Below, in pieces: positions 17,316 to 37,684 of a DNA stretch of 64,000 nucleotides. Under the pieces are notes generated by a model. It was given only the letters and a program-made list of their open reading frames with translations, made no database searches and had not been told where the DNA came from. Source of the stretch: Cyclobacterium sp. SYSU L10401 (lineage in GTDB: Bacteria; Bacteroidota; Bacteroidia; Cytophagales; Cyclobacteriaceae); assembly GCF_010993705.1 (NCBI RefSeq), contig NZ_WOFO01000001.1:1082132-1146131 (forward strand), read 5' to 3'. The position numbers and the translations under genes were made by a program. Each line of letters opens with the position of its first letter. Position 1 is the stretch's first letter.

Positions 17316-17333
17316 TCGTCCGCTAGCGGACGA
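17316..17333. promoter_or_regulatory. Candidate enhancer dyad for the NtrC-like regulator (site 1)
   Basis: TCGTCCGC-TA-GCGGACGA is a perfect 18-bp palindrome and the most symmetric member of a five-copy family in this window (others at 22973, 28321, 33873 and 37667). It ends 70 bases before a -24/-12-like element and lies about 140 bases upstream of the ABC ATPase start, the position expected for an NtrC-type upstream activating sequence. Confidence 0.7.
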
Positions 17334-17403
17334 AGTTGTACGGATAAAACAGACCCATTGAGGAATAAAACACCCCTATTCAGCCCTATAACCGTCTGTT
17401 TTA

Positions 17404-17419
17404 TGGCATGGTACTGGAA
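17404..17419 (+). promoter_or_regulatory. Sigma-54-like -24/-12 promoter element for ATPase-TolC operon
   Basis: TGGCATGGTACTGGAA has the -24 GG and, ten bases later, GA where sigma-54 promoters usually have GC. The same pattern stands upstream of three permease genes. A start site about 12 bases after the -12 G would fall near 17429, giving a leader of roughly 44 bases to the ATG at 17473. Confidence 0.6.
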
Positions 17420-17472
17420 TCAAGCTTTTACAGTAGATGTAATTCCTCCTCAATGACCATCATTCTGTATTT

Positions 17473-18147
17473 ATGATCCAGTTAAAAGAAATCGACAAGT
17501 TTATAGCATCCCGTTTCCAAAGGGTCTTCATTTTAAATGGCATTCACCTTCACATCGGGCAAGGGGAGTTCATCACACTGATGGGACCCTCAGGCGTGGG
17601 AAAATCCACTTTGCTCAATATCATTGGCCTGCTGGACGAAGATTATGAAGGAGAGTACATCTTCGATGGCAAAGCCATGGCGTCCTTGAAGGACAAGCAG
17701 CGGTCATCACTTCATAAATCGGAATTCGGATATATCTTCCAGGCTTATCACCTGATCGATGAGTTGACCGTGTATGAGAATATCGAGACTCCTTTGCTTT
17801 ACAGGAAAGTATCCTCAGGGGAAAGGAAAAGCATTGTAGCGGCCCTGCTGGACCGATTCAATATGGTAGCCAAAAAAGACCTGTTTCCGGAACAACTTTC
17901 AGGGGGACAGCAACAGCTGGTGGGAGTGGCCAGGGCCATCGCCGGAAAGCCCCGGATACTTTTGGCTGATGAGCCTACCGGCAACCTGCATTCTGCCCAG
18001 GCAAGGGAAATCATGGAGGTATTCAGGGAACTCAACCAGGAGGGGACCACAATTATTCAGGCCACCCATGCCAGGGAAAATGCTGATTATGGGAGCCGCC
18101 TCATAGAAATGCTGGACGGTAAAATTGCAAAAGACATTCAAATTTGA
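17473..18147 (+). CDS. ABC transporter ATP-binding protein (MacB/LolD type)
   Basis: 224 residues, a complete ABC ATPase: Walker A GPSGVGKST (near 37-45), Q-loop FGYIFQAYHLIDELT, signature LSGGQQQLVGVARA, Walker B ILLADEPTGNL and H-loop ATHA. It belongs to the LolD/MacB/FtsE group that energises FtsX-fold permeases acting on periplasmic substrates. In the signature segment the usual Arg after LSGGQQQ is Leu, unlike the second ATPase at 24443 (LSGGQQQRVAIARA), and NLHSAQ replaces NLDS. The stop is one base before the TolC-like gene, so the two form an operon under the element at 17404. No permease lies next to it. Confidence 0.9.
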   Translation: MIQLKEIDKFIASRFQRVFILNGIHLHIGQGEFITLMGPSGVGKSTLLNIIGLLDEDYEGEYIFDGKAMASLKDKQRSSLHKSEFGYIFQAYHLIDELTVYENIETPLLYRKVSSGERKSIVAALLDRFNMVAKKDLFPEQLSGGQQQLVGVARAIAGKPRILLADEPTGNLHSAQAREIMEVFRELNQEGTTIIQATHARENADYGSRLIEMLDGKIAKDIQI

Positions 18148-18148
18148 T

Positions 18149-19483
18149 ATGAAAAAATTGATGATTTTCCCGATGATGATCCTACTTGCCTGCGTTCAAA
18201 CCTTGGCACAGGATACCATTCCCCTTTCGTTCGAGGAGGCAGTGGCCATCGGATTGGAGCAGCAGATGGATCTGAAAGTTTTGGAAAACCAACAGCAGGT
18301 GCTCCGCATGAATAGCCTCAATGCCCGCTTGAGGCAGCTGCCATCGCTCAATATCAATAACAGTATCGGCAGGCAGGTAGGCCAGCAATTTCAGCAGGTG
18401 GAAGGCGAGCTGATCGTAACCAACCAAATCAATGACAGGATATCTTCCGGACTCAATTCCCAGGTGCCGGTATTCGCCGGCTTTCAACGGGTAAATGAAT
18501 CCAGGGCATCCAGGTATTTTGAGGAGGCGGGGGAATTTGCCCTGGGCAGGGCTCAGGAAGATGTCAAATTTACCATCGCACAGCAATACCTGCAGGTATT
18601 ACTGGATGAGCAGTTGCACGCCATTGCCAGTGAAAATCTCCAAAACCAAAAAAAGCAGTTGGAACAAATTGAAGGTTTTGTGGAAGCCGGTCTCCGCACC
18701 CTATCGGACCAGTACAACCAACAATCGGAGGTAGCCAGATTGGAAACAGTAGTATTAAATGCGAGGATTCAATGGGAAACAGACTTATGGACCCTGGCCG
18801 AAACCCTGCAACTGGAACCCAATATTTTACCCAGACTCCAGGCTGTTGATTTGAAGCAAACCAGGAATGAATGGTTGGTCATGGATTTGCAAGCACTTTA
18901 TGAGCAGGCTTTACAGCAGAGGAAGGATTTTAGGGAACAGCAGTTGCTGGAGCAGGGAAACCAAAGGCTGTTGGTAGCGGCAAAAGGATCCAGGTATCCG
19001 CAGTTGTTTGCATTTTTCAATTACAATACCTTTTTCACCTCTCTGGATGAAAGGACCATCAGGGATCAGCTGTTGACTGTTTACCCCCAGCGGATTTTTG
19101 GCTTGAACCTGAGCATCCCCATTTTTAATAATTTTGACAACCAGGCAGCCATTACCCGTGCAAGGGTCAATAGGATGAACCAGAAACTGGAAAGTAAAGC
19201 CCTGGAAAGGAAAATTTCGCAGGAAGTAAAGTTGGCCCTTGAAAATTATAAAGGGGCCTTACAAAGGCAGGCATCCACTGCATTGCAACTCAAAGCAGCA
19301 GCACAGGCCAGAGAGGCCATTGCAGAAAGATTCCGCTTAGGCGTAAGCAATTTTGTGGATCTGGCACAGGCCAATCAGCAATGGGTCACTGCCCAATCCG
19401 ACCATGTGCAAGCCAGGTATACCCTTTACTTTCAGGAGATCATAATGGATTACGCCATGGGGGAGGCTTCTGTAAGTTACTAA
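18149..19483 (+). CDS. TolC-family outer membrane efflux protein
   Basis: 444 residues from ATG 18149, one base after the ATPase stop; a TTG further upstream overlaps the ATPase gene and would spoil the signal peptide. A Sec signal (MKKLMIFPMMILLACVQTLAQ) precedes two repeated OEP domains with the long helical pairs typical of TolC: residues about 35-215 and 240-435, including SLNINNSIGRQVGQQF and RFRLGVSNFVDLAQANQQWV. It would form the trimeric outer-membrane/periplasmic channel of a tripartite exporter. The membrane fusion protein it would need is encoded at 23099, beyond the two-component genes. Confidence 0.92.
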   Translation: MKKLMIFPMMILLACVQTLAQDTIPLSFEEAVAIGLEQQMDLKVLENQQQVLRMNSLNARLRQLPSLNINNSIGRQVGQQFQQVEGELIVTNQINDRISSGLNSQVPVFAGFQRVNESRASRYFEEAGEFALGRAQEDVKFTIAQQYLQVLLDEQLHAIASENLQNQKKQLEQIEGFVEAGLRTLSDQYNQQSEVARLETVVLNARIQWETDLWTLAETLQLEPNILPRLQAVDLKQTRNEWLVMDLQALYEQALQQRKDFREQQLLEQGNQRLLVAAKGSRYPQLFAFFNYNTFFTSLDERTIRDQLLTVYPQRIFGLNLSIPIFNNFDNQAAITRARVNRMNQKLESKALERKISQEVKLALENYKGALQRQASTALQLKAAAQAREAIAERFRLGVSNFVDLAQANQQWVTAQSDHVQARYTLYFQEIIMDYAMGEASVSY

Positions 19484-20048: not shown

Positions 20049-21425
20049 TTAAATTTTTGACAGACCCCCGGAAGTTCCAAACAACAAAGTAAATGTAGTC
20101 CTTTCACCAGGTACTGAGGTTACCTCCAGACTTCCCTGGTGCAGGTTCATGATTTGTCGGGAGATGGCCAGTCCAATGCCGCTACCCGTTTTTTTGGTGG
20201 TATAGAAGGGGACGAATATGCGTTCCAGGGCTTCGGCGACTATTCCATCCCCATGGTCAGTAATTTGTATAAAGGGATGTCCGTGCTGGTCAGAGCAGGC
20301 AGTAAGTTGGATGGTCCTGTTGGTGGCTTTTTCCATGGCTTCACTGGCATTTTTGATCAGGTTGATCAGGATCATCTGAATCATTTCCTTATCTGCAATG
20401 ATTTCCAGGCCCGGAGGTTGAATACTGGATTTTAGGATCAATTCCGACTTTGCGAGCTCCTCTTTCATGAGTATACAAATATTCTCGAAGAGCTTGCTAA
20501 CCCGAAGTCTCTTGGGATGCGGGTTAGGGATATTCGTGTAATCACGATAAGCGTTTACAAAATCCACCAGGCCGCTACTCCGTTTAGAAATGGTTTCCAA
20601 TCCCTCTGACAGGTCCAGGAAACTGTCTTTATTGATCATCAGGCCGGATGGTACTTCTTCCAGGTCCTCTTCCAGTATGGTGCCCAGTGAATTGGCAAGG
20701 CTGGCGATAGGGGTCATGGAGTTCATGATCTCATGTCGCAGGACTTTGGTCAGGTTTTGCCAGGCTTTTAATTCATTTTTCTGAAGTTCTGACCTGATAT
20801 TTTGAAAAGACAGCAAGGTCCAGCTCTGCCCATCCATTTTGAAGGCAGCAGATTGCACATTCAGGTGGAGGTCAGCATTGATTTTCATGGAAAACGATCC
20901 GCCTGGCTGAAGCTCCAGGACCATTTTAAGTAAGTCCTCCGAGCGTTTTCCCAGATCGTGAATGTCTTTAAACTGTGGGATTTGAAGCAGCTGTTTGGCA
21001 GCTCCATTGATTACTCCGATTTTTCCTCCACTTTCAAACGATAGGATTCCTGTATTGATGTGTTGAATCATGATCTGTAAAAAAAGCATCTGCTCTTCCT
21101 TTTCGGCCCTGGTTTTTTTGAAGGCTTTTATGACCTCATTAAAGGACAGGTTCATTTCCATAAAGGACCTGCCCAGCTTGCTGTCTTTGGTAAAGGAGGA
21201 GGAAAAATCTGAATACCGGATGGAGTCCAGAAAACGTGTAATTTTCCTGTTGGTGGTATTGCTATAGGCAATCAGGTTGATGGTTTGGAACACCAGTATA
21301 AGGGAGAAGACAAATCCCAGCAGGAGGGCATTTTCCCGGATATAGAAATACATAGCCAGATGTATGATCAGGATGACCAACAGCACCCTGATGACAATCC
21401 CGAAAGCAAAAGACTTAAAGCCCAT
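20049..21425 (-). CDS. NtrB-like membrane sensor histidine kinase
   Basis: 458 residues from ATG 21425 (MGFKSFAF), chosen over an ATG at 21497 because it leaves only an 11-base overlap with the response-regulator gene and begins a membrane segment. Two TM segments lie at about 8-28 and 35-55. A PAS-like region follows (about 110-215, with INTGILSFESGGKIGVING), then the H-box LRHEIMNSMTP (phospho-acceptor His231), N-box NLIKNASEAM, G1 DHGDGI and G2 GSGIGLAI. Downstream of the regulator in the same operon, it is the obvious partner of the NtrC-like protein and probably senses envelope or membrane stress, since the likely targets are exporters. Confidence 0.9.
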   Translation of the reverse strand: MGFKSFAFGIVIRVLLVILIIHLAMYFYIRENALLLGFVFSLILVFQTINLIAYSNTTNRKITRFLDSIRYSDFSSSFTKDSKLGRSFMEMNLSFNEVIKAFKKTRAEKEEQMLFLQIMIQHINTGILSFESGGKIGVINGAAKQLLQIPQFKDIHDLGKRSEDLLKMVLELQPGGSFSMKINADLHLNVQSAAFKMDGQSWTLLSFQNIRSELQKNELKAWQNLTKVLRHEIMNSMTPIASLANSLGTILEEDLEEVPSGLMINKDSFLDLSEGLETISKRSSGLVDFVNAYRDYTNIPNPHPKRLRVSKLFENICILMKEELAKSELILKSSIQPPGLEIIADKEMIQMILINLIKNASEAMEKATNRTIQLTACSDQHGHPFIQITDHGDGIVAEALERIFVPFYTTKKTGSGIGLAISRQIMNLHQGSLEVTSVPGERTTFTLLFGTSGGLSKI

Positions 21426-22803
21426 AACGTTCCAATCTTCTGTAGAGGGAGGATCTGGTAAGACCCAATTCCTCTGCTGCCCGGGTAATATGGCCATTGT
21501 GCTTCTGCAAGGCTTTTCTGATCAGTATTTTTTCCACATCTTCTATGTTATAGTGGTCCAGGTTGATGCTTTCTTCATGTTTTTCAGGAGGAAGCTGTTT
21601 TTGCATGAACAGATCTTCCGGCTGCAGTACGCTGTGGTTGGACATGATGACCGCCCGCTCTATGCTGTGCTGTAGTTCCCGGATATTTCCAGGCCAGGTA
21701 TATTTTTGCATCCTTTTGATCAGCCCTTCCCCGGCTTTGCGGATATCCTTGTTGTATTTTTTGGCATAGATACCGATAAAATGATTGGCCAGGGGCATGA
21801 TGTCTTCCAGCCTTTCTCTCAGTGGGGGGAGGGTGATTTCTATGGTATTGATGCGGTAGAGCAGGTCCTGCCGGAAACTATTGTCATATACCATGTTATG
21901 GATGGCCATATTGGTGGCAGAAATCAGGCGGATATTCACAGGCAGCGCTTTGTTGGTACCCACCCGGGTGACCTCACGGTTTTGGAGCGTGGCCAATAAT
22001 TTGGCCTGAAGGGGCAGGGGTAGGTTGCCGATCTCATCCAGAAAAAGGGTGCCCTTATGCGCCTGTTCAAATCGTCCGGAACGATCCTCCCGGGCATCCG
22101 TGAAAGCCCCTTTTTTGTGACCAAACAGTTCGCTTTCAAACAAGGTAGGGGTGATGGATCCCAGGTCTACGCCCACAAAAGCTTCCTTGTGTCGCTTTGA
22201 ATTTCGGTGAATGGCTCTGGCCACCAGTTCCTTACCGGTGCCATTTTCTCCCAATATCAAAACATTGGCATCCGTGCCTGCCACCCGGTCTATGGTTTCA
22301 AATACTTTCATCATGGCCGGGCTCTGCCCGATGATGTCCTTAAATTTCTGATCCATGTCCTGAAGGAATTGTTGCTGTTGGTTCCTCAATTGAGAGATTT
22401 CCAACTTGGACTGGCGGAGTTGCAAGGCGGCATTAAGGGTAGCCAGTAATTTTTCGTTTTCCCAGGGTTTGAGCACAAAATCAGTAGCACCCTCTTTGAT
22501 GGCTTTTACAGCGGTAGTCACATCACCATATGCGGTGATCAAAACCACCACCGCAGAGGAGTCCAACTCCAGGATCCTGTCCAGCCAATAAAACCCTTCC
22601 TGTCCGCTGCTGACATCCCTGGTGAAATTCATGTCCAGTAAGATGACATCGTATTGTTCATTGACCATCAGGATTGGTAATAGTCCCGGATTGGTTTCTG
22701 TATCTACCTGGCCAAAATGCCTTTTCAAGAAAATTTTGGCTGCCTTCAGCAGGTCTTCGTTGTCATCAATGATCAGTATTTTACCGGCTTTCTGCTCTTT
22801 CAT
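21415..22803 (-). CDS. NtrC-family sigma-54-dependent response regulator
   Basis: 462 residues from ATG 22803 (MKEQKAGKILIIDDNED); non-ATG starts upstream have no matching domain. Domains: receiver (10-130) with phospho-acceptor Asp in VILLDMNFT; AAA+ sigma-54 activator (about 155-390) with Walker A GENGTGKE, sigma-54 contact loop GAFTDA (Asp236 where GAFTGA is usual), Walker B LFLDEIGNLP and an arginine-finger region; C-terminal Fis-type HTH (HNGHITRAAEELGLTRSSLYRR). When phosphorylated, such proteins bind enhancer dyads and remodel sigma-54 RNA polymerase. Five matching dyads with -24/-12-like elements occur upstream of exporter genes in this window. The gene is divergent from the membrane fusion protein operon and overlaps the kinase gene by 11 bases. 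Confidence 0.93.
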   Translation of the reverse strand: MKEQKAGKILIIDDNEDLLKAAKIFLKRHFGQVDTETNPGLLPILMVNEQYDVILLDMNFTRDVSSGQEGFYWLDRILELDSSAVVVLITAYGDVTTAVKAIKEGATDFVLKPWENEKLLATLNAALQLRQSKLEISQLRNQQQQFLQDMDQKFKDIIGQSPAMMKVFETIDRVAGTDANVLILGENGTGKELVARAIHRNSKRHKEAFVGVDLGSITPTLFESELFGHKKGAFTDAREDRSGRFEQAHKGTLFLDEIGNLPLPLQAKLLATLQNREVTRVGTNKALPVNIRLISATNMAIHNMVYDNSFRQDLLYRINTIEITLPPLRERLEDIMPLANHFIGIYAKKYNKDIRKAGEGLIKRMQKYTWPGNIRELQHSIERAVIMSNHSVLQPEDLFMQKQLPPEKHEESINLDHYNIEDVEKILIRKALQKHNGHITRAAEELGLTRSSLYRRLERYGL

Positions 22804-22972: not shown

Positions 22973-22990
22973 TTGGTCGCTGGCGGACAA
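22973..22990. promoter_or_regulatory. Candidate enhancer dyad (site 2)
   Basis: TTGGTCGC-TG-GCGGACAA is an 18-bp near-palindrome of the five-copy family. It lies between the divergent regulator gene and the membrane fusion protein operon, 71 bases before the -24/-12-like element at 23062. It could also act on the regulator's own operon. Confidence 0.65.
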
Positions 22991-23061: not shown

Positions 23062-23078
23062 TGGCATGCTAATTGGCA
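23062..23078 (+). promoter_or_regulatory. Sigma-54-like promoter of the fusion protein-ATPase operon
   Basis: TGGCATGCTAATTGGCA has the -24 TGGCA and TTG in the -12 box, the closest of the five elements to the sigma-54 consensus. The predicted start site near 23087 is just upstream of the two candidate start codons (23099 and 23111). Confidence 0.6.
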
Positions 23079-23098
23079 ATGGTAAGAAAGAAATAAAA

Positions 23099-24364
23099 AT
23101 GCTCCCGGAGATGGATAGAAAGCTTGAGAAAAAAACCTGGACCCCCCAATTAATTGGTGTTTTGATCACAGGGTTCCTTTTGGTGGCCTTTGTGATTTAT
23201 CAATTGGTATTTGCGGACACCCGATCCAGTATGAATGTAGACCGGGAAAGAATTACGATTGCCACGGTCAAAAGAGGTGAGTTTACCGATTATATCCCGG
23301 TCAGTGGCACCATCGAGCCGAAGGAGGTTTTCTACCTGGATGCCATCGAGCGGGGAAATATTCAGGAGATTGTCCGGGAGTCAGGTTCCATGGTAGAAAA
23401 AGGAGATACGATTTTGAAATTGACCAATTCAAACCTTCAATTGGACGTGATGCAAAGGGAGACGGACCTTTATTTTCAAATCAATAACCTCAGGCAAACC
23501 CGCCTGCTCCTGGATCAAAATGACCTCAACCAACAGGCCCAACTGGCAGAAATTGACTATCAGATTAACCTGCTGCAACCGCAATACGAAAGGTTTCGGG
23601 AATTGCATGAAAAAAGGCTAATTTCTGACAGGGAACTGGAAGAAGTCAAGGAGGAATACGAATACAATTTGAAAAGGCAAAGGCTGACCTATGCCTCTTA
23701 TAGAGCCGACTCCATTGCCCGGTCTATTCAAAAGAAGCAGTTACGGGATTCAGAGGAAAGAATGAATCAATCCTTAAATGGAGTGGGACACATTCTGGAT
23801 AACCTGATCGTCAGGGCCCCTATTCCGGGCCAATTGACCACAGAAGAGATTGAGGTAGGCCAGTCTATCAATGCGGGTGAGCGTTATGGACAAATTGATA
23901 TCATCGATAAATTCAAAGCAAGGGTTCCTGTCGACGAATTGTATTTGCCCAGAATCAATATCGGATTGAAAGGGGCCTTTAGTTTTTCTGGAGAAACCTA
24001 CGAAATGGAAATTGACAAAATTTACCCTAATGTGACCGGGGGAAGGTTTGAAGTAGACATGGTCTTTAGCAGTGCAAGCCCATCCGGCATCCGCAGGGGA
24101 CAAACCGTGAGAATCCGGCTTGAACTTGGAGAAAGCGAACAGGCCAATTTATTGCCTACGGGCGGTTTTTATAAGGATACCGGTGGAAATTGGGTGTTCG
24201 TTGTGGATGAAGAAAGTGGAAAAGCAGAAATAAGAAACATCCGCCTGGGCAGAAAAAATCCGGAATATTACGAGGTGATCGAAGGTCTCACTGAAGGAGA
24301 AAAAGTGATTGTCAGTGGCTATGAAAATTTCGGTAAAAATGAGGTGCTGAATCTTGGCCGTTAG
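23099..24364 (+). CDS. Periplasmic adaptor (membrane fusion protein, HlyD/MacA-like)
   Basis: 421 residues from ATG 23099; ATG 23111 is equally possible. Upstream in-frame codons run through the promoter element and are not translated if the promoter is right. An N-terminal membrane anchor (LIGVLITGFLLVAFVIYQLV) is followed by a lipoyl/barrel-sandwich half (ITIATVKRGEFTDYIPVSG), a long coiled-coil hairpin (about 100-220), the second barrel half (IVRAPIPGQLTTEEIEVGQSI) and beta-barrel/membrane-proximal domains ending in GLTEGEKVIVSGYENFGKNE. It joins the inner-membrane ABC transporter to TolC. The matching ATPase follows 78 bases downstream. Confidence 0.9.
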   Translation: MLPEMDRKLEKKTWTPQLIGVLITGFLLVAFVIYQLVFADTRSSMNVDRERITIATVKRGEFTDYIPVSGTIEPKEVFYLDAIERGNIQEIVRESGSMVEKGDTILKLTNSNLQLDVMQRETDLYFQINNLRQTRLLLDQNDLNQQAQLAEIDYQINLLQPQYERFRELHEKRLISDRELEEVKEEYEYNLKRQRLTYASYRADSIARSIQKKQLRDSEERMNQSLNGVGHILDNLIVRAPIPGQLTTEEIEVGQSINAGERYGQIDIIDKFKARVPVDELYLPRINIGLKGAFSFSGETYEMEIDKIYPNVTGGRFEVDMVFSSASPSGIRRGQTVRIRLELGESEQANLLPTGGFYKDTGGNWVFVVDEESGKAEIRNIRLGRKNPEYYEVIEGLTEGEKVIVSGYENFGKNEVLNLGR

Positions 24365-24442
24365 CAAATAGACAAATATGAATATTTCCCAAATACCCTC
24401 ACCAATTGGCAATTCAAAGGTTAAATCCATAATTTGAAAAAC

Positions 24443-25141
24443 ATGCAAAACATCATCAAAACCAATCAATTGAAAAAGCGGTATACCACCGAGGAAGTAG
24501 AAACCACCGCCCTGGACGATATCCAAATTGAAATCAAAAAAGGAGAGTTTGTCGCGATCATGGGACCCTCCGGATGTGGGAAATCTACCCTGCTGAATAT
24601 CATTGGGCTGCTGGATAACCCCGACGAGGGAGAGTATTACTTCCTGGAAAAAGAGGTCGCCAAATTTTCAGAACGGCAGCGGTCTCAACTCAGAAAGGGC
24701 AATATAGGATTCGTTTTTCAGAGTTTTAACCTGATCGATGAACTCACCTGCTTTGAAAATGTAGAATTGCCCCTACTGTACCTTAAAATCCCTTCTGATG
24801 AAAGGAAAAAGAAGGTGGAGGAAGTATTGACCCGGATGAATATCATGCACCGGAAAAACCATTTCCCCCAGCAGCTTTCGGGAGGTCAGCAGCAAAGGGT
24901 AGCCATTGCCCGGGCCATTGTGGCCAAACCGGCGGTGATCCTGGCAGATGAGCCAACAGGAAACCTGGATTCCGCCAATGGGGAAGAGGTGATGCGCCTT
25001 TTAGAGGAGTTGAACAATGAAGGGACCACCATCGTCATGGTCACCCACTCCCCCCATGATGCCAACTACGCCCACCGGATTATCAATCTTTTTGATGGCA
25101 AGGTGGTGACTGAAAATATCCGGGAACAATTTCACATTTAG
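24443..25141 (+). CDS. ABC transporter ATP-binding protein (MacB/LolD type)
   Basis: 232 residues from ATG 24443; a TTG nine bases earlier is less likely. All ABC motifs are canonical: Walker A GPSGCGKST, Q-loop FVFQSFNLIDELT, signature LSGGQQQRVAIARA, Walker B VILADEPTGNLDSA and H-loop VTHSP. Second gene of the fusion-protein operon. The permease expected next is present only as a stub (25154-25321), so this ATPase must pair with a permease encoded elsewhere, most economically one of the three co-regulated MacB-type permeases at 25657, 31087 and 35140. Confidence 0.93.
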   Translation: MQNIIKTNQLKKRYTTEEVETTALDDIQIEIKKGEFVAIMGPSGCGKSTLLNIIGLLDNPDEGEYYFLEKEVAKFSERQRSQLRKGNIGFVFQSFNLIDELTCFENVELPLLYLKIPSDERKKKVEEVLTRMNIMHRKNHFPQQLSGGQQQRVAIARAIVAKPAVILADEPTGNLDSANGEEVMRLLEELNNEGTTIVMVTHSPHDANYAHRIINLFDGKVVTENIREQFHI

Positions 25142-25656: not shown

Positions 25657-28092
25657 CTATTCACTACGCAAAGATTTCACTGGATTCGCTAAAGCAGCCT
25701 TAATGGCCTCCTTGCCAACGGCCAACCAGGCCACCAGTAAAACCAATCCTCCTGCAGCCAAATAGGTCCAGATGGAAATATCTATCCGGTAAGCAAAGCC
25801 TTCCAGCCATTGGTTCATCAGCCACCAGGAAATTGGGAATGCAATGAAGGCTGACAAAAGTACCAGCTTTATATATTCCCTGGACAGCATGCTCACAATG
25901 GTGGATACATCCGCACCAAGAACCTTTCGGATTCCAATCTCTTTATTGCGCTGTTTTGCAGTAAACATAGCCAGCCCAAATAAACCCAAACAGGCAACAA
26001 AGATGATCAAGCCTGAAAACACCACCAGGATGTATCCTATCCTTCGTTCTGCCTGATAGGTTTGGTAATACCTTTCGTCCAAAAATGAGTACTCAAAGGG
26101 TTCCTCTGGGGCAAGGGTATTCCATTTCAATTTGATGTCTTCCAGTAAGCTTCCTGGCTCATCGGTATTGAGCCTGGCGATGACAGCTCCATGGCTGTTA
26201 CTTTTTGCCATAACCAATGGAAAGATGCGTTCATGCAAGGACCTGAAATGGAAGTCTTTCACAATGCCAATGACCTGGTAATTTGTTTGGTTCCCTTCAT
26301 TGTCCAGGTGGGAAAGGGTCTTACCCAGGGCATCTTCTTCCCAGTTCAATGCCCGGGCCGCAGTCTCATTCAGAATAATGGAGGTTTGTTCGGATCCAAA
26401 AGCTTCCGAAAAATTTCTACCGGCCTCCAATTCCATGCCCAGAGTGGGTATGTAATCGGCATCTACATCATACCTCAAGGTTTTCACTTGCCTGCGCACA
26501 TCCCCATCCGGATACAAAAAGAAATTATTATTGAAGGATGGCCCTGAAGGCAGGTATCCGGAAATACTTACGCTTGCGACTCTTGAGTCCTGAAGCAGCT
26601 GTTGCCGGAATACTTCAGTATTGTTTCCCAGGTACCGGACCTCTGGAAAAATCAAAACCTGATCTTTGTTGTAACCCAGGTTTTTATTTTGGATAAACTC
26701 CAGTTGGTTGTAAACCACGATGGTGCCTATAATCAGTATTACAGACACGGCGAACTGGAATATAACCAATCCGCTGCGCAAACTAAAGGACCGTTTGCCC
26801 ATGCTGCCTGAGCCTGGGAAAAAGGATCCTTTCAATACGGAAACAGGCTTGAAAGTAGAGAGGAAAAATGCCGGATATATACCGGCAAGTATCCCTACCA
26901 TCAGCCCAAATAAAAGCAGGGCGGGCACAGTCCATAGGTTGGAAAAATACTGAATGTCTACGTCTTTTCCTGCAAGGTTATTAAATACGGGCAGCGATAA
27001 TTTTACCAATGTCATGGCTATTAATAGTGCAAAAAGGCTCAATAGGGTGTATTCGGCAAGAAATTGTCCAACAAGTTGCTGCTTTTCTGACCCAAGTACT
27101 TTTCGAACACCCACTTCCCGGGCCCTTTTGCCGGCACTTGCTGTGGAAAGGTTAATGAAATTGATGCTGGCAATCAGGATCATAAAAAGGGCAATGGCCC
27201 CGGAAATGTAGACATACCTGATATCCCCACCCGGTCCCAGTTCGCCCATCAAGTCAGAATGCAAATGAATGGAAGTGAGTGGCTGCAGGAAGATGCCGAT
27301 ATCGTTTCCATCTTCCTTGAATTGATTGTAACTGATTCCCATGGCTTCTTCTAGTTGCGGGCCCATGTATTTTTCGGCTACCTGGGGAAGTTTTGCTTCC
27401 AGGTTTTTGTAATTATAGCCGGGTTGAAGCAACAAATAGGTATAAAATTCTGAAACCATCCAGGAAGGGTTTTTGGCTTGCGGAAAGGTCGCCATGGAAG
27501 CCAAAAGGTCAAAATGAAAATGGGAGTTGGCCGGCATATCTGCCATGACACCCGTAATGGTGAACAGGTCCCTGTCATCCCCGATCAACAGCTCTTTTCC
27601 TATCGGATTCTCCCCCTTAAAATAGGTTTGTGCGGTAGATGCAGAAATCACAATGGTGTGGGGTTCTTTTAAAGCCTGATCCGGATCCCCCTGGATCAAT
27701 GGAAAGGTAAACACCTGGAAAAAATTGGCATCTGCAAAGGCAGCGGGTTTGTCTCGGAATGCGCTGTTCTCATAAATAACCTTAGGATTCCCCATCTTCC
27801 GGATGCGCGTAGCCTGCTCTACCTCAGGATAATCTGCCTTCAGGGCAGCTGCTACCGGAGGCATCACATGTGCTTCATTCATCGTCCCCCCCTGTATGGA
27901 TCCACGAAAGACTACCCGGACAATGCGGTCTGCCTTGTCATGAAAACTATCGTACCCAAGCTCGCTGATTATTGAAAGTAGGATAAGCAGGCAGGAGGCC
28001 ATTCCAATAGCCAGCCCCAATATATTGATAGCAGTGAAGGATTTGTCCCTAAGCAGGTTTCTAATCGCAATTTTAAAATAGTTTTTTATCAT
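25657..28092 (-). CDS. MacB/FtsX-type ABC transporter permease
   Basis: 811 residues from ATG 28092 (MIKNYFKIAIRN). Architecture of the long Bacteroidota permeases: TM1 (about 20-40), large periplasmic MacB core domain (50-245), three FtsX TM segments (about 285-425), a further TM segment, a second periplasmic core domain (455-645) and three final TM segments; both FtsX halves carry the conserved KEIGIRKVLG / REVGVRKVLG cytoplasmic loop. Such permeases do not move substrate across the inner membrane but couple ATP use to periplasmic events such as pushing substrate into TolC. No ATPase gene adjoins it; ATPases at 17473 or 24443 are the likely partners through shared regulation. Confidence 0.92.
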   Translation of the reverse strand: MIKNYFKIAIRNLLRDKSFTAINILGLAIGMASCLLILLSIISELGYDSFHDKADRIVRVVFRGSIQGGTMNEAHVMPPVAAALKADYPEVEQATRIRKMGNPKVIYENSAFRDKPAAFADANFFQVFTFPLIQGDPDQALKEPHTIVISASTAQTYFKGENPIGKELLIGDDRDLFTITGVMADMPANSHFHFDLLASMATFPQAKNPSWMVSEFYTYLLLQPGYNYKNLEAKLPQVAEKYMGPQLEEAMGISYNQFKEDGNDIGIFLQPLTSIHLHSDLMGELGPGGDIRYVYISGAIALFMILIASINFINLSTASAGKRAREVGVRKVLGSEKQQLVGQFLAEYTLLSLFALLIAMTLVKLSLPVFNNLAGKDVDIQYFSNLWTVPALLLFGLMVGILAGIYPAFFLSTFKPVSVLKGSFFPGSGSMGKRSFSLRSGLVIFQFAVSVILIIGTIVVYNQLEFIQNKNLGYNKDQVLIFPEVRYLGNNTEVFRQQLLQDSRVASVSISGYLPSGPSFNNNFFLYPDGDVRRQVKTLRYDVDADYIPTLGMELEAGRNFSEAFGSEQTSIILNETAARALNWEEDALGKTLSHLDNEGNQTNYQVIGIVKDFHFRSLHERIFPLVMAKSNSHGAVIARLNTDEPGSLLEDIKLKWNTLAPEEPFEYSFLDERYYQTYQAERRIGYILVVFSGLIIFVACLGLFGLAMFTAKQRNKEIGIRKVLGADVSTIVSMLSREYIKLVLLSAFIAFPISWWLMNQWLEGFAYRIDISIWTYLAAGGLVLLVAWLAVGKEAIKAALANPVKSLRSE

Positions 28093-28235
28093 CGCCAATA
28101 ACTAATGATTTTTTTCCGTCCAAGTTCAACCTCCCCGATCTCTTTTCCAAACTAACAATAGGCAGCTCATTCCTGATTAGCCGACAAGTTTTGTTAAGAT
28201 CTGGTAATGCCCTAGCGAGGCTTACAATATATCAT

Positions 28236-28251
28236 ATCTACTTCCATACCA
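28236..28251 (-). promoter_or_regulatory. Sigma-54-like promoter of permease gene 25657-28092
   Basis: On the minus strand TGGTATGGAAGTAGAT, differing from the element upstream of the 35140-37500 permease at only two positions. The predicted start near 28226 gives a leader of about 134 bases. It lies 69 bases from the dyad at 28321, counting between element edges. Confidence 0.6.
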
Positions 28252-28320: not shown

Positions 28321-28338
28321 TTGTTCGCTGGCGGGCAA
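28321..28338. promoter_or_regulatory. Candidate enhancer dyad (site 3)
   Basis: TTGTTCGC-TG-GCGGGCAA, an 18-bp near-palindrome of the five-copy family. It is nested within longer arms: CACATTG at 28314-28320 and CAATGTG at 28343-28349 are also inverted copies. The permease it would control is to the left; no -24/-12-like element is seen towards the membrane-protein gene at 28486. Confidence 0.65.
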
Positions 28339-31086: not shown

Positions 31087-33531
31087 TTATTCACTTCTCA
31101 AGGCATTTACCGGATTGGCAATAGCTGCTCTTATGGTTTGGACGCTTACTGTCAGCAGGGCAATCCCCATCGACACAAGTCCAGCCAGCGCAAACATCCA
31201 CCAATTCATATCAATCTTGTAGGCAAAGTTTTCCAGCCAATGGTTCATGACATACCAGGCCATGGGCGAGGCTATCGCAAAAGCAAGTAGAATCAATTTC
31301 ACAAGATCTTTGCTCAGGATTCCTACGATAGCCGGAACATTTGCCCCCATCACTTTGCGGATGCCTATTTCCTTGGTGCGCTGTTGGACGGAAACAGTAA
31401 TCATTCCAAGCAGACCTAAGCTGGAGAGTAAAATACTTAACCCACCAAATGCCACACTCAAGGACAAAGCCCTGCGGTCATCTTTGTACAACCTGTCAAA
31501 TTCCTCATCCAAAAAAGTGTATTCAAAAGGGTGCTCAGGAGTAAATTCATTCCATACTTTTTTGGCCTGGTCCAGTGCCTGAGGCGTATTTCCTGGGTTT
31601 ATTTTGACCAAATAAGATGAAGCCCCATAGGGGTCAAGTGAAAATACGATTGGATCAATTTTTTCGTGTAAGCTTTTGTGGTGATAATCCTGGACTACTC
31701 CGATGATCGTTCCGCTTTCCTCTGATCCTGTCCGATAGGACATGGTGGAGAAGGAGGTTCCCACCAGGGGCTCCTGAAGGCCGAAAACTTTAACCGCTGT
31801 TTCATTGAGGATTAAGTTGTTGAAGTCCGACGTATTTTCGTTTTCAAACCAACGGCCAGATGCCAGCGTCAGGTTGGCCAGTTCGGCGTAGTTTTCATCC
31901 GCCCAAATCTGGACTACCTCAAAAGGATCCCGGGCTTCCGGATAGCCCGACCAGGAAATACTGACCGGTTGTTTTCTTTTGTCATCCAGGATTGAGGTGC
32001 CATTGACCTGCGAAACAGACTGTATGGCGTTACTTGCAAGCAAACTGGTTTTAATACTGCTAACCCGAGACGCATGGCGTTTTTTCGCCTCTTCATCACC
32101 AGATCCAAAACCTATTGGCAAAGGTACATGTAACCTGAATACCTGCTCCTTCTGGTAACTATCCGTTTGCTGCTGAATAAAAGCAAATTGATTATGGATG
32201 GTAATGATTCCCACCAGTAGCACCACTGAAAAAACAAGTTGGCCTGTAACCAGGGCCTTACGGAAACCCTGTTTACTAAGGCCTGCCAACACCTGGTTTT
32301 TAAGCAAGGCTACCGGCTTCAAAGTAGCCAGAACCAAAGCAGGGTAGAGACCGGTTAATAGGAGTACCAGGGTTACTATTCCCAGAATCAGCCATAAAAT
32401 CTGAGGATTCAGCAGGTCCATTACCAGGTTTCTTTCTACAAAGGCATTGAAATCCGGAAGCAGCAAAAAGGCCAGCAACAAGGTGAAGCCAGTGGCCATG
32501 GTGATGGAAAGGAAGGTTTCTACCATTACCTGGACAATCAAATGATTTTTTGAAGCACCCACGATTTTGCGAATCCCAATTTCCTTCAATCGGGTACCGA
32601 TCCGGGCAATGGATAAGTTGACAAAATTAACACTGGCTACTCCAAGCAGTAAAACCGCGAGAATCGAAAAGACCCATAAGTTGAGGGTATTCCCGTGCGG
32701 AATGATTTGATCAAGTAATCCGTTTTCAAAATGTAAATCCCTTAATGCAACCAATTTGGATCGCCTGGCTGACTCCGCCATCCATGATGGCCGGTTTCTG
32801 GCAATGATTTCAGCTATTTTTTGCTCTGCTTCCACGATAGACGCAGCAGGATACAACTTTATAAACAAAAGTTGAGAGAAGATGCCCCAGGACTGGGTGT
32901 TACCCAAATCCTCCTTGCTTTCCTGATAAATGGAATTTGAAACCAGGATATCCTGTTGGAAGGAGGAGTTGGCTGGAATATCCTCGATGACTGCCGCTAC
33001 GGCATAAGGGATTGAGTCAATATAAATTGTCTGTTCTAAGGGGGGCAGGTCTCCAAAATACCTGGCCGCTTTGGAGCGGGTCAGGATCACTGAACGCGGA
33101 TTATTGAAAAAATAGTCCAGACTTCCCTGCTGAACCTTGTAGGTGAACATGTCTATCCAGTCCCTGCCCACAATCAGGCCATTGGTTTCTTTGAATGGCT
33201 GACCATTGATTTCCAAAACCTTTCTACTCAGGCCGGTTCCGGCCATGGCCATTTGTTCTATTTCGGGGACCTTTTCATGAATGGCCTCGGAGGTCGGATA
33301 AGAGGAATGCCCGCTAAAGGTGTATGCTGACTTAATCGTATCATAATCCGCTCGTAAATATATCCGCTCTGCGTCCGGATGATAGTTGTCAAAACGCAGC
33401 TCATTGTGACCCCAAAGAAGAATAAGAATAGCCGCAGTCATGGCTATGGCTAGCCCCCCTATGTGGATGATAGCGCTTATTTTGTTTTGCCGGAGATAGC
33501 GAAAAGCGATTTTAAAGTAATTTTTTATCAT
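31087..33531 (-). CDS. MacB/FtsX-type ABC transporter permease
   Basis: 814 residues, same architecture as the 25657 protein: TM1 near 20-40, MacB core domain (50-250), FtsX TM block with LKEIGIRKIVGASKNHLIVQ, a second periplasmic domain (about 450-650) and a last FtsX block with TKEIGIRKVMGANVPAIV. It starts MIKNYFKIAFRYLRQNK. The promoter-like element at 33789 and dyad at 33873 precede it by about 260 and 340 bases, a longer leader than its two relatives. The end lies 82 bases before the start of the ERCC4 nuclease gene on the same strand. Confidence 0.92.
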   Translation of the reverse strand: MIKNYFKIAFRYLRQNKISAIIHIGGLAIAMTAAILILLWGHNELRFDNYHPDAERIYLRADYDTIKSAYTFSGHSSYPTSEAIHEKVPEIEQMAMAGTGLSRKVLEINGQPFKETNGLIVGRDWIDMFTYKVQQGSLDYFFNNPRSVILTRSKAARYFGDLPPLEQTIYIDSIPYAVAAVIEDIPANSSFQQDILVSNSIYQESKEDLGNTQSWGIFSQLLFIKLYPAASIVEAEQKIAEIIARNRPSWMAESARRSKLVALRDLHFENGLLDQIIPHGNTLNLWVFSILAVLLLGVASVNFVNLSIARIGTRLKEIGIRKIVGASKNHLIVQVMVETFLSITMATGFTLLLAFLLLPDFNAFVERNLVMDLLNPQILWLILGIVTLVLLLTGLYPALVLATLKPVALLKNQVLAGLSKQGFRKALVTGQLVFSVVLLVGIITIHNQFAFIQQQTDSYQKEQVFRLHVPLPIGFGSGDEEAKKRHASRVSSIKTSLLASNAIQSVSQVNGTSILDDKRKQPVSISWSGYPEARDPFEVVQIWADENYAELANLTLASGRWFENENTSDFNNLILNETAVKVFGLQEPLVGTSFSTMSYRTGSEESGTIIGVVQDYHHKSLHEKIDPIVFSLDPYGASSYLVKINPGNTPQALDQAKKVWNEFTPEHPFEYTFLDEEFDRLYKDDRRALSLSVAFGGLSILLSSLGLLGMITVSVQQRTKEIGIRKVMGANVPAIVGILSKDLVKLILLAFAIASPMAWYVMNHWLENFAYKIDMNWWMFALAGLVSMGIALLTVSVQTIRAAIANPVNALRSE

Positions 33532-33788
33532 GCTATTAGTAAATATGATTGTTGACTAACTCAGGCATAAATTTTCAGTTGCACCCGTTTCTCCACAAAT
33601 CCATCATGATCAAACCAGGCTTTCTGCGACACCCTGTTACAGGTCTTTTCCTGTACCTTGGATTGGCCAGGATTCCCTATTTCTGCCTTTCTGTATCGGA
33701 ATTCAGTTAAAAATAAGGAAAAAGGAATAGCCCTTTTATTCGAAGGGAGTTTTTTCAGCCGGGATTTATCGGATTCCATTACTATTTA

Positions 33789-33804
33789 TTCCACTTCTAT
33801 GCCA
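33789..33804 (-). promoter_or_regulatory. Sigma-54-like promoter of permease gene 31087-33531
   Basis: On the minus strand TGGCATAGAAGTGGAA, with -24 GG and GA at -12. The predicted start near 33779 leaves a leader of about 248 bases. The near edge of the dyad at 33873 is 68 bases away. Confidence 0.6.
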
Positions 33805-33872: not shown

Positions 33873-33890
33873 GTGTCCGTTGACGGGCAA
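33873..33890. promoter_or_regulatory. Candidate enhancer dyad (site 4)
   Basis: GTGTCCGT-TG-ACGGGCAA, the least symmetric of the five sites but with the same spacing. An identical half-site ACGGGCAA lies 20 bases to the left (33863-33870), two helical turns away. Confidence 0.55.
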
Positions 33891-34051: not shown

Positions 34052-34067
34052 AATAGGTATTTGTATT

Positions 34068-34340: not shown

Positions 34341-34740
34341 TGCCAATGTTCTTTTGGATTTTTTTCTTGAGCGAAATTTGCAGCCTGAAACGATAGAAAA
34401 GATATTTATGCTGATTGACAATAAAAAGGTTGAGGGCTATGTAACCGTAACCATACTTCAAATTTGTGCTTATTATTTAACGAAGGCAAAAGGGGTAGCA
34501 GTAGCAAAAGAGATTTTGGAGATGGTTATTTTGAAATTTCAGCTTTTGGATGGCAATAAAAAAAATGTTCTGAATGCCCTGAAATCAGAACAGCAGGATA
34601 TTGAAGATGCCATTCACTATTTTATTGCGCTTGAGAACGAAGTCAATGCGATCGTTACTTTAGATCAAGGTTTTATTAAATTGTCCTCTCCCTATTTACC
34701 CATTTACAGTCCTGCTGACCTATTGAACAATATTGGTTAG
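34321..34740 (+). CDS. PIN-domain ribonuclease toxin
   Basis: 139 residues from ATG 34321 inside the end of the antitoxin gene. PIN fold with the acidic metal-binding residues in order: LFDANVLLDFF (Asp near 6 and 11), QQDIEDAIHYFIAL (Glu/Asp near 97-100) and VTLDQGF (Asp near 117). PIN toxins cut RNA, often tRNA or rRNA. With the overlapping RHH gene it forms a typical VapBC-like module. The gene is 58% A/T-looking like its antitoxin, and lies between two co-regulated permeases. Confidence 0.88.
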   Translation: MSKILFDANVLLDFFLERNLQPETIEKIFMLIDNKKVEGYVTVTILQICAYYLTKAKGVAVAKEILEMVILKFQLLDGNKKNVLNALKSEQQDIEDAIHYFIALENEVNAIVTLDQGFIKLSSPYLPIYSPADLLNNIG

Positions 34741-35139
34741 GAAGTGCTTTGTCTTTATTTTGCTTTCTGACCCGATTTTTTGACCAGGAAAAAAAAAGCC
34801 TTCATTCCCACAAGCCTCCTGCGCATCCCCTGAGAAAATTCAGGACCGACCACTGACTACCGTCAGGACAGGTTCGGTTTTTTGTCGGGCCAGTGCGCAT
34901 TGCATATTTAAAATATAGTTCTTCTATTTTTCAAATTTTTCCCAAGTAATACCTTTTAGAAATCAGTTTTAAATCCGTCATTGGTAAATTGGCCAATCCC
35001 CTTTTTCAATAGCCATTCCCGTTGTGGTTCATTTGTTTGGTTTGATTATCTTAAGGTCACCATATGATTTATCACCTGAACGGAAACTCATGTGATCACT
35101 GATCAATTTTTCCTGATCATAAATTATCATAACATCCAA
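34741..35139. other. Intergenic region, nothing recognised
   Basis: A 399-base gap between convergent PIN toxin and permease genes. No open frame, RNA gene, strong hairpin or member of the dyad family was seen. Confidence 0.5.
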
Positions 35140-37500
35140 TTACTCGCTCTTCAGCGTCTCAGCGGGATTGACCAGCCCCGCTTTGATCGCCTGGGCGCTT
35201 ACCGTCAGTAAGGCAATCAAAAGCGTCAAGCCACCGGTCCATAAGAACAAGGCCCAATCAATAGTAGTCCTGTAAGCAAATGTCTCCAGCCAATCGCTCA
35301 TAAAATACCAGGTAACCGGTATACCTATGATCACGGAGATCAGCACCAGTTTGGTAAATTCTGAAGAGATCAACGCCACCACGCTGCCAATTGATGCACC
35401 CAATACTTTCCTGACAGAGATTTCCTTTTTTCGCCGTTCTGCTATATAGGTCGCCAATCCAAAAAGCCCCATACAGGATATTATCCCGGCCAGGCCTGTA
35501 AACAAGGATGTCAGCCTGGCAGTACGTTCCTGGGATATGAATTTGCGGGCATGCTCCTGATCTACAAATCGGTATTCAAAAGGGGAGTCGGGATTGTATT
35601 TATTGAAAACGGTCTCAACCCTGGCGAGGGAATTCAAATAATCAGCTGCTTCTTCAAACCGGATTTGGATGAAATTCAGGTCGCGCTTTGGCCCCATTAC
35701 CATGATCGGAGACACTTCATCAAAGGGAGATTCCACAATAAAATCCTTTACTACGCCCACAATGGTAAAGGAATAGGCGTCATCCTTGACCACCTGACCA
35801 ATGGGGTCCTCAAACCCCATCACCTCAACCGCTTTTTCATTGACGATTGCCGAAAGGCTGTCACTGGCATAGGAATAAATATCAATATCCCTTCCTGCGA
35901 TCAATTCCATTCCGGCTGTTTTCACCAGGTTTGCATCTGTTCCCATGCGACTGATATTTGGCTTGTATTCCGGGTCTTTGCCTTGCCATTCCATCCCATC
36001 AGTGTCGCTGTAAATATTGGTTAAGGGAGAAAAGGTATAGCTGACCTCGGCTACCTCCGGAAGGGCCTGCAATCCAAGACGAAGTGCCGTTTTGTTCTTT
36101 CTGATACTTTGCGTTACCGGATGAAAAATCAGGTTCTCCTTGTCCATTCCCAAATCTCTGTTTTGGACAAACCTCATCTGATCCTGCACAATCCATACAC
36201 AGGATATGAGGGTGACCACAACGGCAAACTGAAAAACCACCAAAACCTCCCGAGGCTTCCATCCAAGGTTACTCCTTGTTCTCATTTGGGATTTAAAAAC
36301 TGCTGTGGGCTGGTAAGCACTTAATAAAAATGCCGGATAGCTACCTGCAAGTATCCCTGTTACAAAAATATAAACGGCAGAAATCCCCCAAAAGTAGGGT
36401 TGGGTAAACGGGTTGGGCAATTCCTGGCCCACCAAACCCTTAAACCAGGGAAAAGAAAGGGATACAATGGTGATGGCCAGCAAATAGGCGGTGAGTGCGA
36501 TGAATACAGATTCGGCGAGGAACTGGCCAATCAGCATGCCTTTGCCTGCACCGGAGATCTTCCGGATTCCCACTTCTTTGGACCGTTGGTCACTTTGGGC
36601 AGTACTCAGGTTCACAAAGTTAATCGCTGCAAGCACCAAAACAATAATGGAGACGATGCCAAACATCCGGATCATTTCGATTTTTCCCCCTACAGACTTT
36701 CCATTTTCGAATTTGGAATAAAGATGAAGATCACGAATAGGAAAAAGAAAATCAGAAATGTCTTCCAGATCGGAGTTACTGGTAGTGAAGTCCGCAAACT
36801 TCTGATTGAATGCAGCATGATCGGCATGCTCATTTAACAAGGCAAAGGTACGGTAGGAATTATTTCCCCAATAGTCATCAGCCCAGCCCTCGGCTTCCAA
36901 TTTCTTGAAAGGCAGAAAGACTGTAAAAGGGAAAGCGGTATTCTCCGGTAAGTCCTTTATCACTGCGCCAACGGCAAAATCCCATTGCTTGCTTACCGTC
37001 ACTATTTTACCCAGAGCTGAGGTCTGGCCGAATAATTTAAGTGCAACGGATTCAGTCAGAACAATATTTCCCGGTTCCGTCAATGCAATAATTGGGTCAC
37101 CTGCCAGGGCTTCAAAGCTGAAAATTTCAAAAAATCCATGGTCGGTAAAAGTGGCCTCTTCATAGAAATTATTTTCACCCACGGTTAAGAGTTGTTGGTC
37201 CCATTCGGTGATCCTGGCTACTTCTTCCACTTCGGGAAACTGCGCTTTCATGGCTGGGGCATAGGGAGCTGGTGTATAGTCCCAGGTTGATACCTGGCCT
37301 TGCATGGTTGCATTTCTCCAGACGGCATATATCCGATTTGAATTTTCATGAAAGCGGTCGACAGATAGCTCAAACTGCACCCAGATAAGTATGAGTATAG
37401 AAGCGGCCATGCCGATCCCCAGTCCTGCAATGTTTATAAATGCGTATCCCTTACTCCTGCGGATGTTTCTCCAGGCGATTTTAAAGTAATTTTTCCACAT
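35140..37500 (-). CDS. MacB/FtsX-type ABC transporter permease
   Basis: 786 residues starting MWKNYFKIAWRNIRRSKGYAF. Same two-core, two-FtsX-block architecture as the other two permeases, with SKEVGIRKISGAGKGML and KKEISVRKVLGASIGSVV as the conserved cytoplasmic loops. It is somewhat shorter than its relatives and has more sequence change in the first periplasmic domain, so the three are paralogues rather than recent duplicates. It is preceded by the -24/-12-like element at 37582 and dyad at 37667. Confidence 0.92.
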   Translation of the reverse strand: MWKNYFKIAWRNIRRSKGYAFINIAGLGIGMAASILILIWVQFELSVDRFHENSNRIYAVWRNATMQGQVSTWDYTPAPYAPAMKAQFPEVEEVARITEWDQQLLTVGENNFYEEATFTDHGFFEIFSFEALAGDPIIALTEPGNIVLTESVALKLFGQTSALGKIVTVSKQWDFAVGAVIKDLPENTAFPFTVFLPFKKLEAEGWADDYWGNNSYRTFALLNEHADHAAFNQKFADFTTSNSDLEDISDFLFPIRDLHLYSKFENGKSVGGKIEMIRMFGIVSIIVLVLAAINFVNLSTAQSDQRSKEVGIRKISGAGKGMLIGQFLAESVFIALTAYLLAITIVSLSFPWFKGLVGQELPNPFTQPYFWGISAVYIFVTGILAGSYPAFLLSAYQPTAVFKSQMRTRSNLGWKPREVLVVFQFAVVVTLISCVWIVQDQMRFVQNRDLGMDKENLIFHPVTQSIRKNKTALRLGLQALPEVAEVSYTFSPLTNIYSDTDGMEWQGKDPEYKPNISRMGTDANLVKTAGMELIAGRDIDIYSYASDSLSAIVNEKAVEVMGFEDPIGQVVKDDAYSFTIVGVVKDFIVESPFDEVSPIMVMGPKRDLNFIQIRFEEAADYLNSLARVETVFNKYNPDSPFEYRFVDQEHARKFISQERTARLTSLFTGLAGIISCMGLFGLATYIAERRKKEISVRKVLGASIGSVVALISSEFTKLVLISVIIGIPVTWYFMSDWLETFAYRTTIDWALFLWTGGLTLLIALLTVSAQAIKAGLVNPAETLKSE

Positions 37501-37581
37501 GGTGCCTAATGTAAATGCTTTAGTCCGCTAAATAAAACGCCATTTCAGGTCTATTTACCTATCTATTCCAGAGCTAACGTA

Positions 37582-37597
37582 ATCCACTTCCATGCCA
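37582..37597 (-). promoter_or_regulatory. Sigma-54-like promoter of permease gene 35140-37500
   Basis: On the minus strand TGGCATGGAAGTGGAT, with -24 GG and GA at -12. The predicted start near 37572 gives a leader of about 72 bases. The dyad at 37667 begins 69 bases away. Confidence 0.6.
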
Positions 37598-37666
37598 GTC
37601 CAAAACACCGCATTTGTGCGGAAAATGTAATGTTTATATTCATTCACGAAAGCTATTCGAACAAAA

Positions 37667-37684
37667 ATGTGCGCATGCGGACAA
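37667..37684. promoter_or_regulatory. Candidate enhancer dyad (site 5)
   Basis: ATGTGCGC-AT-GCGGACAA, an 18-bp member of the five-copy family with a perfect right half-site and a weaker left one. Confidence 0.55.

Follow-up and report, generated by a model that had tools for sequence, protein, structure and literature searches.

A candidate sigma-54 regulon of dispersed ABC exporter genes beside an NtrC-type kinase-regulator pair in Cyclobacterium

Signal transfer from a histidine kinase to an NtrC-type activator and on to the sigma-54 RNA polymerase is well established, and the NtrC-type two-component systems (AtoC, PrsR, NtrC and ZraR in NCBIfam) combine a regulator of receiver, AAA+ and Fis-type helix-turn-helix (HTH) domains with an adjacent kinase and with a dyad upstream of a TGGC-type −24 element. 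The parts found in a 64,000-nucleotide stretch of Cyclobacterium sp. SYSU L10401 (contig NZ_WOFO01000001.1, positions 1,082,132 to 1,146,131; the window, below) fit this scheme: five 18-bp dyads stand before genes of an ABC exporter, and the gene of an enhancer-binding protein (EBP), here called EBP1, lies among them with its kinase. Unlike the NtrC-type systems, this locus has a three-half-site operator, a spacing of 68-71 bp between dyad and promoter, a −12 element TNGR without the C, and dispersed exporter targets.

The exporter genes have described relatives as well. MacAB-TolC and the darobactin exporter DarBCD are built from the same subunit types (LolD/MacB ATPase, HlyD adaptor, MacB_PCD/FtsX permease, TolC channel), whereas the permeases here are duplicates of about 800 amino acids encoded in separate units, and the scores stay well under the darobactin cut-offs (DarB 135 of 700, DarC 198 of 450, DarD 237 and 288 of 375). 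Permeases of the ADOP family (TIGR03434) are orphans; permease 1 of the window matches this family over its full length with 301.8 bits, below the curated cut-off of 622.3, and here a putatively co-regulated ATPase and adaptor were identified. The Bce/Lia-type kinases of Bacillota resemble the kinase described here in having two membrane segments, a tiny loop and FtsX-type permeases nearby, and they act through other classes of response regulator, not through sigma-54. Duplicated permeases without a neighbouring ATPase gene have no obvious engine. The regulon described below supplies a probable regulator, operator and promoter geometry together with a co-regulated ATPase and adaptor, and makes both their regulation and their engine testable.

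A survey of sigma-54 regulons (PLoS One 2025, PMC12316311) found sigma-54 promoters enriched before COG0577 permeases in Bacteroidia and calls this the first evidence of a sigma-54 link to that permease family. In the parts of its text at hand the survey gives the enrichment by COG at class level only and describes neither a regulator with its operator nor a set of exporter genes or their dispersal. It is the one directly relevant precedent that we met in the open literature, where nothing was found on the EBP1 regulator, its operator or the dispersed layout.

Our results make it highly probable that all five sites act as enhancers in a single sigma-54 regulon, through which the kinase and EBP1 would switch on an export platform with dispersed permeases. 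The membrane histidine kinase (20049-21425), with almost no periplasmic loop, would phosphorylate its neighbour EBP1 (21415-22803), which would bind a three-half-site operator (a TTGTCCGC-NN-GCGGACAA dyad and a TGTNCG half-site 21 bp on) about 100 bp before the start site. From there it would drive the sigma-54 polymerase at promoters of the form TGGYAT-N5-TNGR, which follow the dyad at 68-71 bp. The expected output is one tripartite ABC export platform, made up of two ATPases, one adaptor and a single outer-membrane channel, together with at least four duplicated permeases, three of them in the window and one on a different contig, each transcribed separately and lacking an ATPase gene in its own unit. 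The phosphorelay, the activation, the use of sigma-54 and the shared ATPase are drawn from knowledge of these families; the last is suggested because permeases and ATPases appear co-regulated. What the sequences show, and what carries the proposal, is that the sites exist in a fixed geometry, are conserved, precede exporter genes and co-occur with EBP1.

The original prediction had claimed five 18-bp dyads with one symmetric pattern, and all five are present exactly where it placed them. The dyad at 17316 is a perfect palindrome and the other four are imperfect. On the exporter-gene side of every dyad (5/5) we found an element TGG(C/T)AT-N5-T(G/T/A)G(A/G), and a third half-site begins 21 bp from the dyad start in all five, as TGTNCG in four and as TGCCCG in one. 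The TGGYAT-N5-TNGR element resembles the −24/−12 element of sigma-54 promoters. The sites are as follows.

17316..17333, plus strand: dyad operator 1, TCGTCCGC-TA-GCGGACGA; third half-site TGTACG at 17337-17342
17404..17420, plus strand: sigma-54-like promoter 1, TGGCATGGTACTGGAAT, 70 bp after the dyad
22973..22990, plus strand: dyad operator 2, TTGGTCGC-TG-GCGGACAA; third half-site TGTTCG at 22994-22999
23062..23078, plus strand: sigma-54-like promoter 2, TGGCATGCTAATTGGCA, 71 bp after the dyad
28321..28338, minus strand: dyad operator 3; third half-site TGTGCG at 28312-28317
28235..28251, minus strand: sigma-54-like promoter 3, TGGTATGGAAGTAGATA, 69 bp after the dyad
33873..33890, minus strand: dyad operator 4, the weakest dyad; third half-site-like TGCCCG at 33864-33869
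33788..33804, minus strand: sigma-54-like promoter 4, TGGCATAGAAGTGGAAT, 68 bp after the dyad
37667..37684, minus strand: dyad operator 5; third half-site TGTTCG at 37658-37663
37581..37597, minus strand: sigma-54-like promoter 5, TGGCATGGAAGTGGATT, 69 bp after the dyad

Each dyad had been said to stand before an ABC ATPase, an adaptor or a MacB-type permease, and all five do head exporter units. The dyads at 28321, 33873 and 37667 are also close to plus-strand genes (28486, 33951 and 37842); since their promoters and the permeases are both on the minus strand, the permeases are the neighbours served. The kinase and EBP1 genes sit between the ATPase 1-channel unit and the adaptor-ATPase 2 unit. 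For EBP1, kinase, adaptor, channel and permease 1 the start codon was picked by eye from the translations.

17473..18147, plus strand: ABC ATPase 1, MacB/LolD type
18149..19483, plus strand: outer-membrane efflux protein (OEP, TolC type), the channel, in one unit with ATPase 1
20049..21425, minus strand: histidine kinase with a very short loop between two predicted membrane segments
21415..22803, minus strand: EBP1, NtrC-type response regulator and sigma-54 activator (receiver, AAA+ with GAFTDA loop, Fis-type HTH)
23099..24364, plus strand: periplasmic adaptor, HlyD/RND_mfp type
24434..25141, plus strand: ABC ATPase 2, in one unit with the adaptor
25657..28092, minus strand: duplicated MacB_PCD/FtsX permease 1
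31087..33531, minus strand: duplicated MacB_PCD/FtsX permease 2
35140..37500, minus strand: duplicated MacB_PCD/FtsX permease 3

The three permeases are 30-34% identical to each other and the two ATPases 54%. The NtrC-family regulator that had been noted mid-region is EBP1, and its domains (PF00072, PF00158, PF25601 and PF02954) all score above cut-off. Its recognition helix is LGLTRSSLYRRLERYGL. As AtoC, PrsR or NtrC proper it was rejected, with scores under the curated cut-offs. Hydropathy gives the kinase two membrane segments, a very short loop and no periplasmic domain, the mark of intramembrane sensing; the loop measures 1-14 amino acids in 20 of 20 orthologues (L060-L079), and among the more distant ones (L146-L160) 11 of 15 have two segments and four have one. 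With almost no loop, the kinase probably senses a signal within the membrane or across it. The earlier reading of this DNA included neither the kinase and the third half-site nor the sigma-54-like promoter at its fixed distance, and it lacked a sixth target, on another contig.

When the dyad pattern TTGTCCGCNNGCGGACAA was searched in the whole 5.9 Mb genome with up to two mismatches, four sites were found, all among the five of the window. The fifth dyad, at 33873, differs from the pattern at four positions, as many as an unrelated site of the window at 12021. We accepted the dyad at 33873 because neighbouring elements rescue it, and rejected 12021 as an operator, which has no such neighbours. 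Under looser limits the window also holds two weak chance pairs of dyad and promoter, at 51130 (spacing 76, summed score 19.8) and 6052 (78, 18.4), as compared with summed scores of 39.0-46.0 for the five composites. The promoter element alone is too loose a detector (211 places against 59 in the reversed control), and a promoter-like site near C1:25065 was discarded, with neither a matched exporter gene nor a dyad of the right kind.

To describe the operator we collected 55 distinct, mutually non-independent composites, taken from loci of the family and the genus as well as from the window itself. The spacing in these is 66 (1), 68 (4), 69 (11), 70 (25) or 71 bp (14), and the third half-site, which was absent from the search model, reads T53 G55 T53 T41 C55 G55. 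The GG of the promoter and the G ten bases on are invariant in 55/55, partly by construction as the promoter was in the search model. The genome encodes one RpoN (match 5e-58) with the RpoN box ARRTVAKYRE. This fixed geometry of operator and promoter offers a pattern by which further members can be located.

When the remaining MacB_PCD genes of this genome were scored for the composite, a sixth one came up before a duplicated permease on contig 17, with spacing 70 and the third half-site TGTTCG. Orthologues of this permease in G249, G224 and G067 (82-88% identity) retain dyad, third half-site and spacing of 70. A loose-composite scan of 1,305,192 bases (1.3 of the 5.9 Mb, window included) returned six distinct dyads at a summed score of at least 18, namely the window five and the contig 17 site, along with opposite-strand readings of four of the five. 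The candidate sixth target is set apart by its spacing, third half-site and orthologous conservation; its summed score alone is not decisive. In G153 (L220, contig 59, 9269-11740) the orthologue is split into two open reading frames (ORFs) and the upstream site is kept. Another contig 17 permease, at 325617, was rejected as a target: it has no composite, and an ATPase gene adjoins it.

A strict dyad+promoter pattern was then searched in 295 family genomes; it misses true sites, including four of the window's own five. Even so it occurs at 30 places in 28/295 genomes, against 0 in the reversed control, and, judged by best match to the window proteins, the exporter gene that comes first downstream is the adaptor (16), ATPase 1 (9) or a permease (5), that is, 30/30. 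EBP1 (at least 76% identity) is present in 54/295 genomes, and the strict composite was found in 26 of these 54 and in 2 of the 241 others; both exceptions have a weaker EBP match and a permease behind the site. Within the genus the strict composite was found in 7/7 genomes with EBP1 and 0/5 without. The genomes are related, and Fisher values for these contrasts overstate their independence, which is to be counted against the reading together with the points gathered below.

Among named genomes that encode EBP1, the nearest belong to Cyclobacterium species. G067 and G249 keep all five sites and units with spacings of 68-71; G224 keeps four sites, with permease 2 directly behind permease 3 and an additional permease with a weaker site. 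A composite with spacing 68-71 bp adjoins EBP1 in 18 of 20 named loci, where EBP1 is 88-93% identical (L060-L077) and ATPase 2 91-100% where it is a single intact ORF. Outside the genus the usual order is EBP-kinase divergent from adaptor-ATPase-permeases, and the permeases beside this core are only 32-37% identical to those of the window (L066-L077). As the core is conserved and the adjacent permeases are not, different permeases fill the same place.

Three genus members without EBP1 (G195, G259 and G211) provide a natural regulator swap. In these the permease array follows OEP (20-21% identity), adaptor (38-39%) and ATPase (70%) genes, and the exporter faces a kinase of 30-32% identity and an EBP 49% identical to EBP1. 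The helix of that EBP is LGISRQTLYNKIKK in G195 and G259 and LGITRQTLYNKIKK in G211, as compared with LGLTRSSLYRRLER in EBP1. A TGGCAT-N5-TGGT promoter is present ahead of the OEP gene, and about 85 bp before it the intergenic region carries an A/T-rich dyad, TGTCAAAATTTTTGACA in two genomes and TGTAAAAAAATTTTACA in one; no TGTCCG-type dyad of the forms searched was found in 6.8 kb of these loci. The promoter is thus kept while EBP and dyad change together, which ties the TGTCCG dyad to EBP1. The three parallel modules lie at L316 (G195), L317 (G259) and L318 (G211), and the tandem array of G195 counts ten permeases (5077766-5102313).

At phylum level an EBP1-like protein (E at most 1e-130) was found in 66/296 genomes, and fifteen distant regions were hand-picked from these. 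Kinase, EBP, adaptor and ATPase genes are together in 15/15 regions, and at least one matched permease is present in 13. Counted at a summed score of 21, a composite stands before the adaptor in 11/15, before permeases in 5/34, before ATPases in 0/17 and before other genes in 1/89. The adaptor promoters read TGGCAC in 10 of 11 and TGGCAT in one, with −12 elements TTGG in seven and TTGC, TTGA, TTGT and TGGT in one each. On the regulator side 7 of 30 kinase/EBP genes score, with the composite before the EBP gene in all seven, because the intergenic dyad is common to both sides; autoregulation of the EBP gene is possible. The distant spacings (53, 62, 71-73 and 83) gave a helical periodicity of p ~0.02 with hand-picked classes, which is suggestive only.

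The one non-exporter match among the 89 is a DUF2807 gene, itself ahead of a permease gene. DUF2807 genes adjoin the exporter in relatives (L147, 17008-17697; L064, 6095-6784), one with its own composite, and none was found in the window between ATPase 2 and permease 1. According to PMC11237479, DUF2807 belongs to the Toastrack group, which is linked to membrane stress.

Taken together, these results support what the original prediction had proposed, a dedicated exporter regulon under one EBP: every strict composite precedes an exporter gene, the composite tracks EBP1 in the genus and reaches a permease on another contig, it recurs in distant Bacteroidota beside the same kinase-EBP pair, and a different EBP goes with a different dyad.

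Several observations weigh against this interpretation. The contact loop of EBP1 reads GAFTDA rather than GAFTGA; GAFTDA or GSFTDA is found in 35/35 listed EBP1 orthologues, and we counted it as GAFTGA-type. In the 55 composites the base after the −12 G is C in one and A or G in 50, so the C usual for sigma-54 is wanting. The dyad taken alone is only moderately informative, and at three mismatches it is at chance level, with nine added sites genome-wide against 16 for the reversed control. At that level we rejected the dyad alone as a genome-wide detector. One of the sites at three mismatches, C9:856652, lies where two unrelated genes converge with their 3' ends; it has no promoter partner and was dismissed.

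Further such points come from the relatives. In genus genomes without EBP1, dyads with up to two mismatches occur once in G195, once in G211, twice in G266, three times in G238 and not in G259; none of the seven (six scored directly, one within a region) has both a spacing of 68-71 and a third half-site, but isolated strong dyads in these genomes reach a summed score of 26.4, as compared with 26.6 for the sixth target. One of the G238 dyads (L225, contig 30 at 3223) has a TGGCAC 71 bp on; it has no third half-site and no exporter gene matched within 15 kb, and is perhaps a site of another EBP. Among the 20 named loci, L079 gave no composite at the threshold used and L078 only a weak, doubtful one. 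The A/T-rich dyads of the swap are from three loci, two of them nearly identical, in A/T-rich DNA. With no composite before 4/15 distant adaptors and with composites before only 5/34 permeases, promoters for single permeases are not general.

The genus permeases also belong here. They occupy 66 places, of which 30 were examined as loci (two being the pieces of the broken G153 gene). Dyad, TGTNCG and promoter at a spacing of 68-70 were found at 16/18 loci in EBP1 genomes and dyad, TGTNCG and promoter at 0/11 in EBP1-less genomes, a contrast weaker than it appears, as each of the 11 is part of a tandem array or stands at its head. The two misses in EBP1 genomes are each directly behind another permease. 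In the three arrays whose upstream DNA was read, an ATPase gene stands ahead of the array.

The main rival keeps the sites as sigma-54 enhancers and has them bound and activated by EBP2, a paralogue encoded on contig 12, or by EBP1 and EBP2 together, which we regard as improbable.

L141 (G000 contig 12), 9395-10774: EBP2 gene, with a GAYTDA contact loop

EBP2 is encoded in the same genome and is 61% identical to EBP1, its helix LGLTRASLYRRLEKYGL is nearly identical to LGLTRSSLYRRLERYGL of EBP1, and a ATGTCCATATTCGGACAT dyad of the TGTCC/GGACA type lies 101 bp before its gene, all of which count in its favour. That dyad was not seen in the single relative checked (L131), however. Moreover, an EBP match like that of EBP2 (E ~1e-184 to 1e-187) persists in four of the five genus members without EBP1 (G195, G211, G238 and G259) and none of these four has a strict composite, although the test is not clean, the EBP1 module being gone from the same four genomes; in three of the four the exporter lies opposite a different EBP gene and carries no such dyad. 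We infer that EBP1, and not EBP2, binds the sites. The EBP2-kinase pair, 61% and 34% identical to the EBP1 pair, adjoins phosphoesterase, glycosyltransferase and glycoside hydrolase genes.

It is very unlikely that a different type of regulator, such as the TetR-type repressor encoded at 38542-39183, uses the dyads as its operators. Short symmetric operators are typical of TetR repressors and this gene adjoins permease 3, but the dyads are about 70 bp upstream of the promoter, which seems far for steric repression, and they adjoin the EBP gene in 18 of 20 named relatives and precede the adaptor (11) or the EBP gene (7) in the 15 distant regions. That the dyads arose by chance, or derive from a terminator or mobile repeat present in several copies, has next to no probability and is refuted as far as sequence allows: the chance-level frequency of the dyad alone and the dyad-only matches in genus members without EBP1 would suit it, but the fixed distances at which two further elements follow, the orthologous conservation and the zero count of the composite control do not, and the letters between the elements vary from site to site.

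Returning to the EBP1 regulon, the signal is a matter of guesswork; it may be stress of the envelope, or else a toxic compound that is sensed through the membrane, and we would guess at a permease as the signalling partner of the kinase, by analogy with Bce systems. The ATPases may likewise be shared among the permeases. Tentatively, and with doubt outweighing belief, the system could be a plug-in platform, in which one invariant core of ATPase, adaptor, channel and regulator works for an exchangeable set of orphan permeases genome-wide, each permease joining by carrying the enhancer and sigma-54 promoter cassette, with the kinase reading permease activity. If so, the set of exportable compounds would evolve while the core is left untouched.

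Other genes are interspersed with the exporter genes. An ERCC4-HhH nuclease ORF (30324-31094) overlaps the end of permease 2 by 8 bp, and looks like a passenger because it is placed elsewhere near permeases in relatives. Toxin-antitoxin-like pairs are found in and beside the exporter region, DUF6364 with PIN (33951-34740) and Xre with RES (14799-15724). We rejected the ERCC4 nuclease, the PIN and RES toxin-antitoxin genes, a DUF2204 gene and the gene at 28486 as members, no window composite being aimed at them; their place beside the permeases differs among species.

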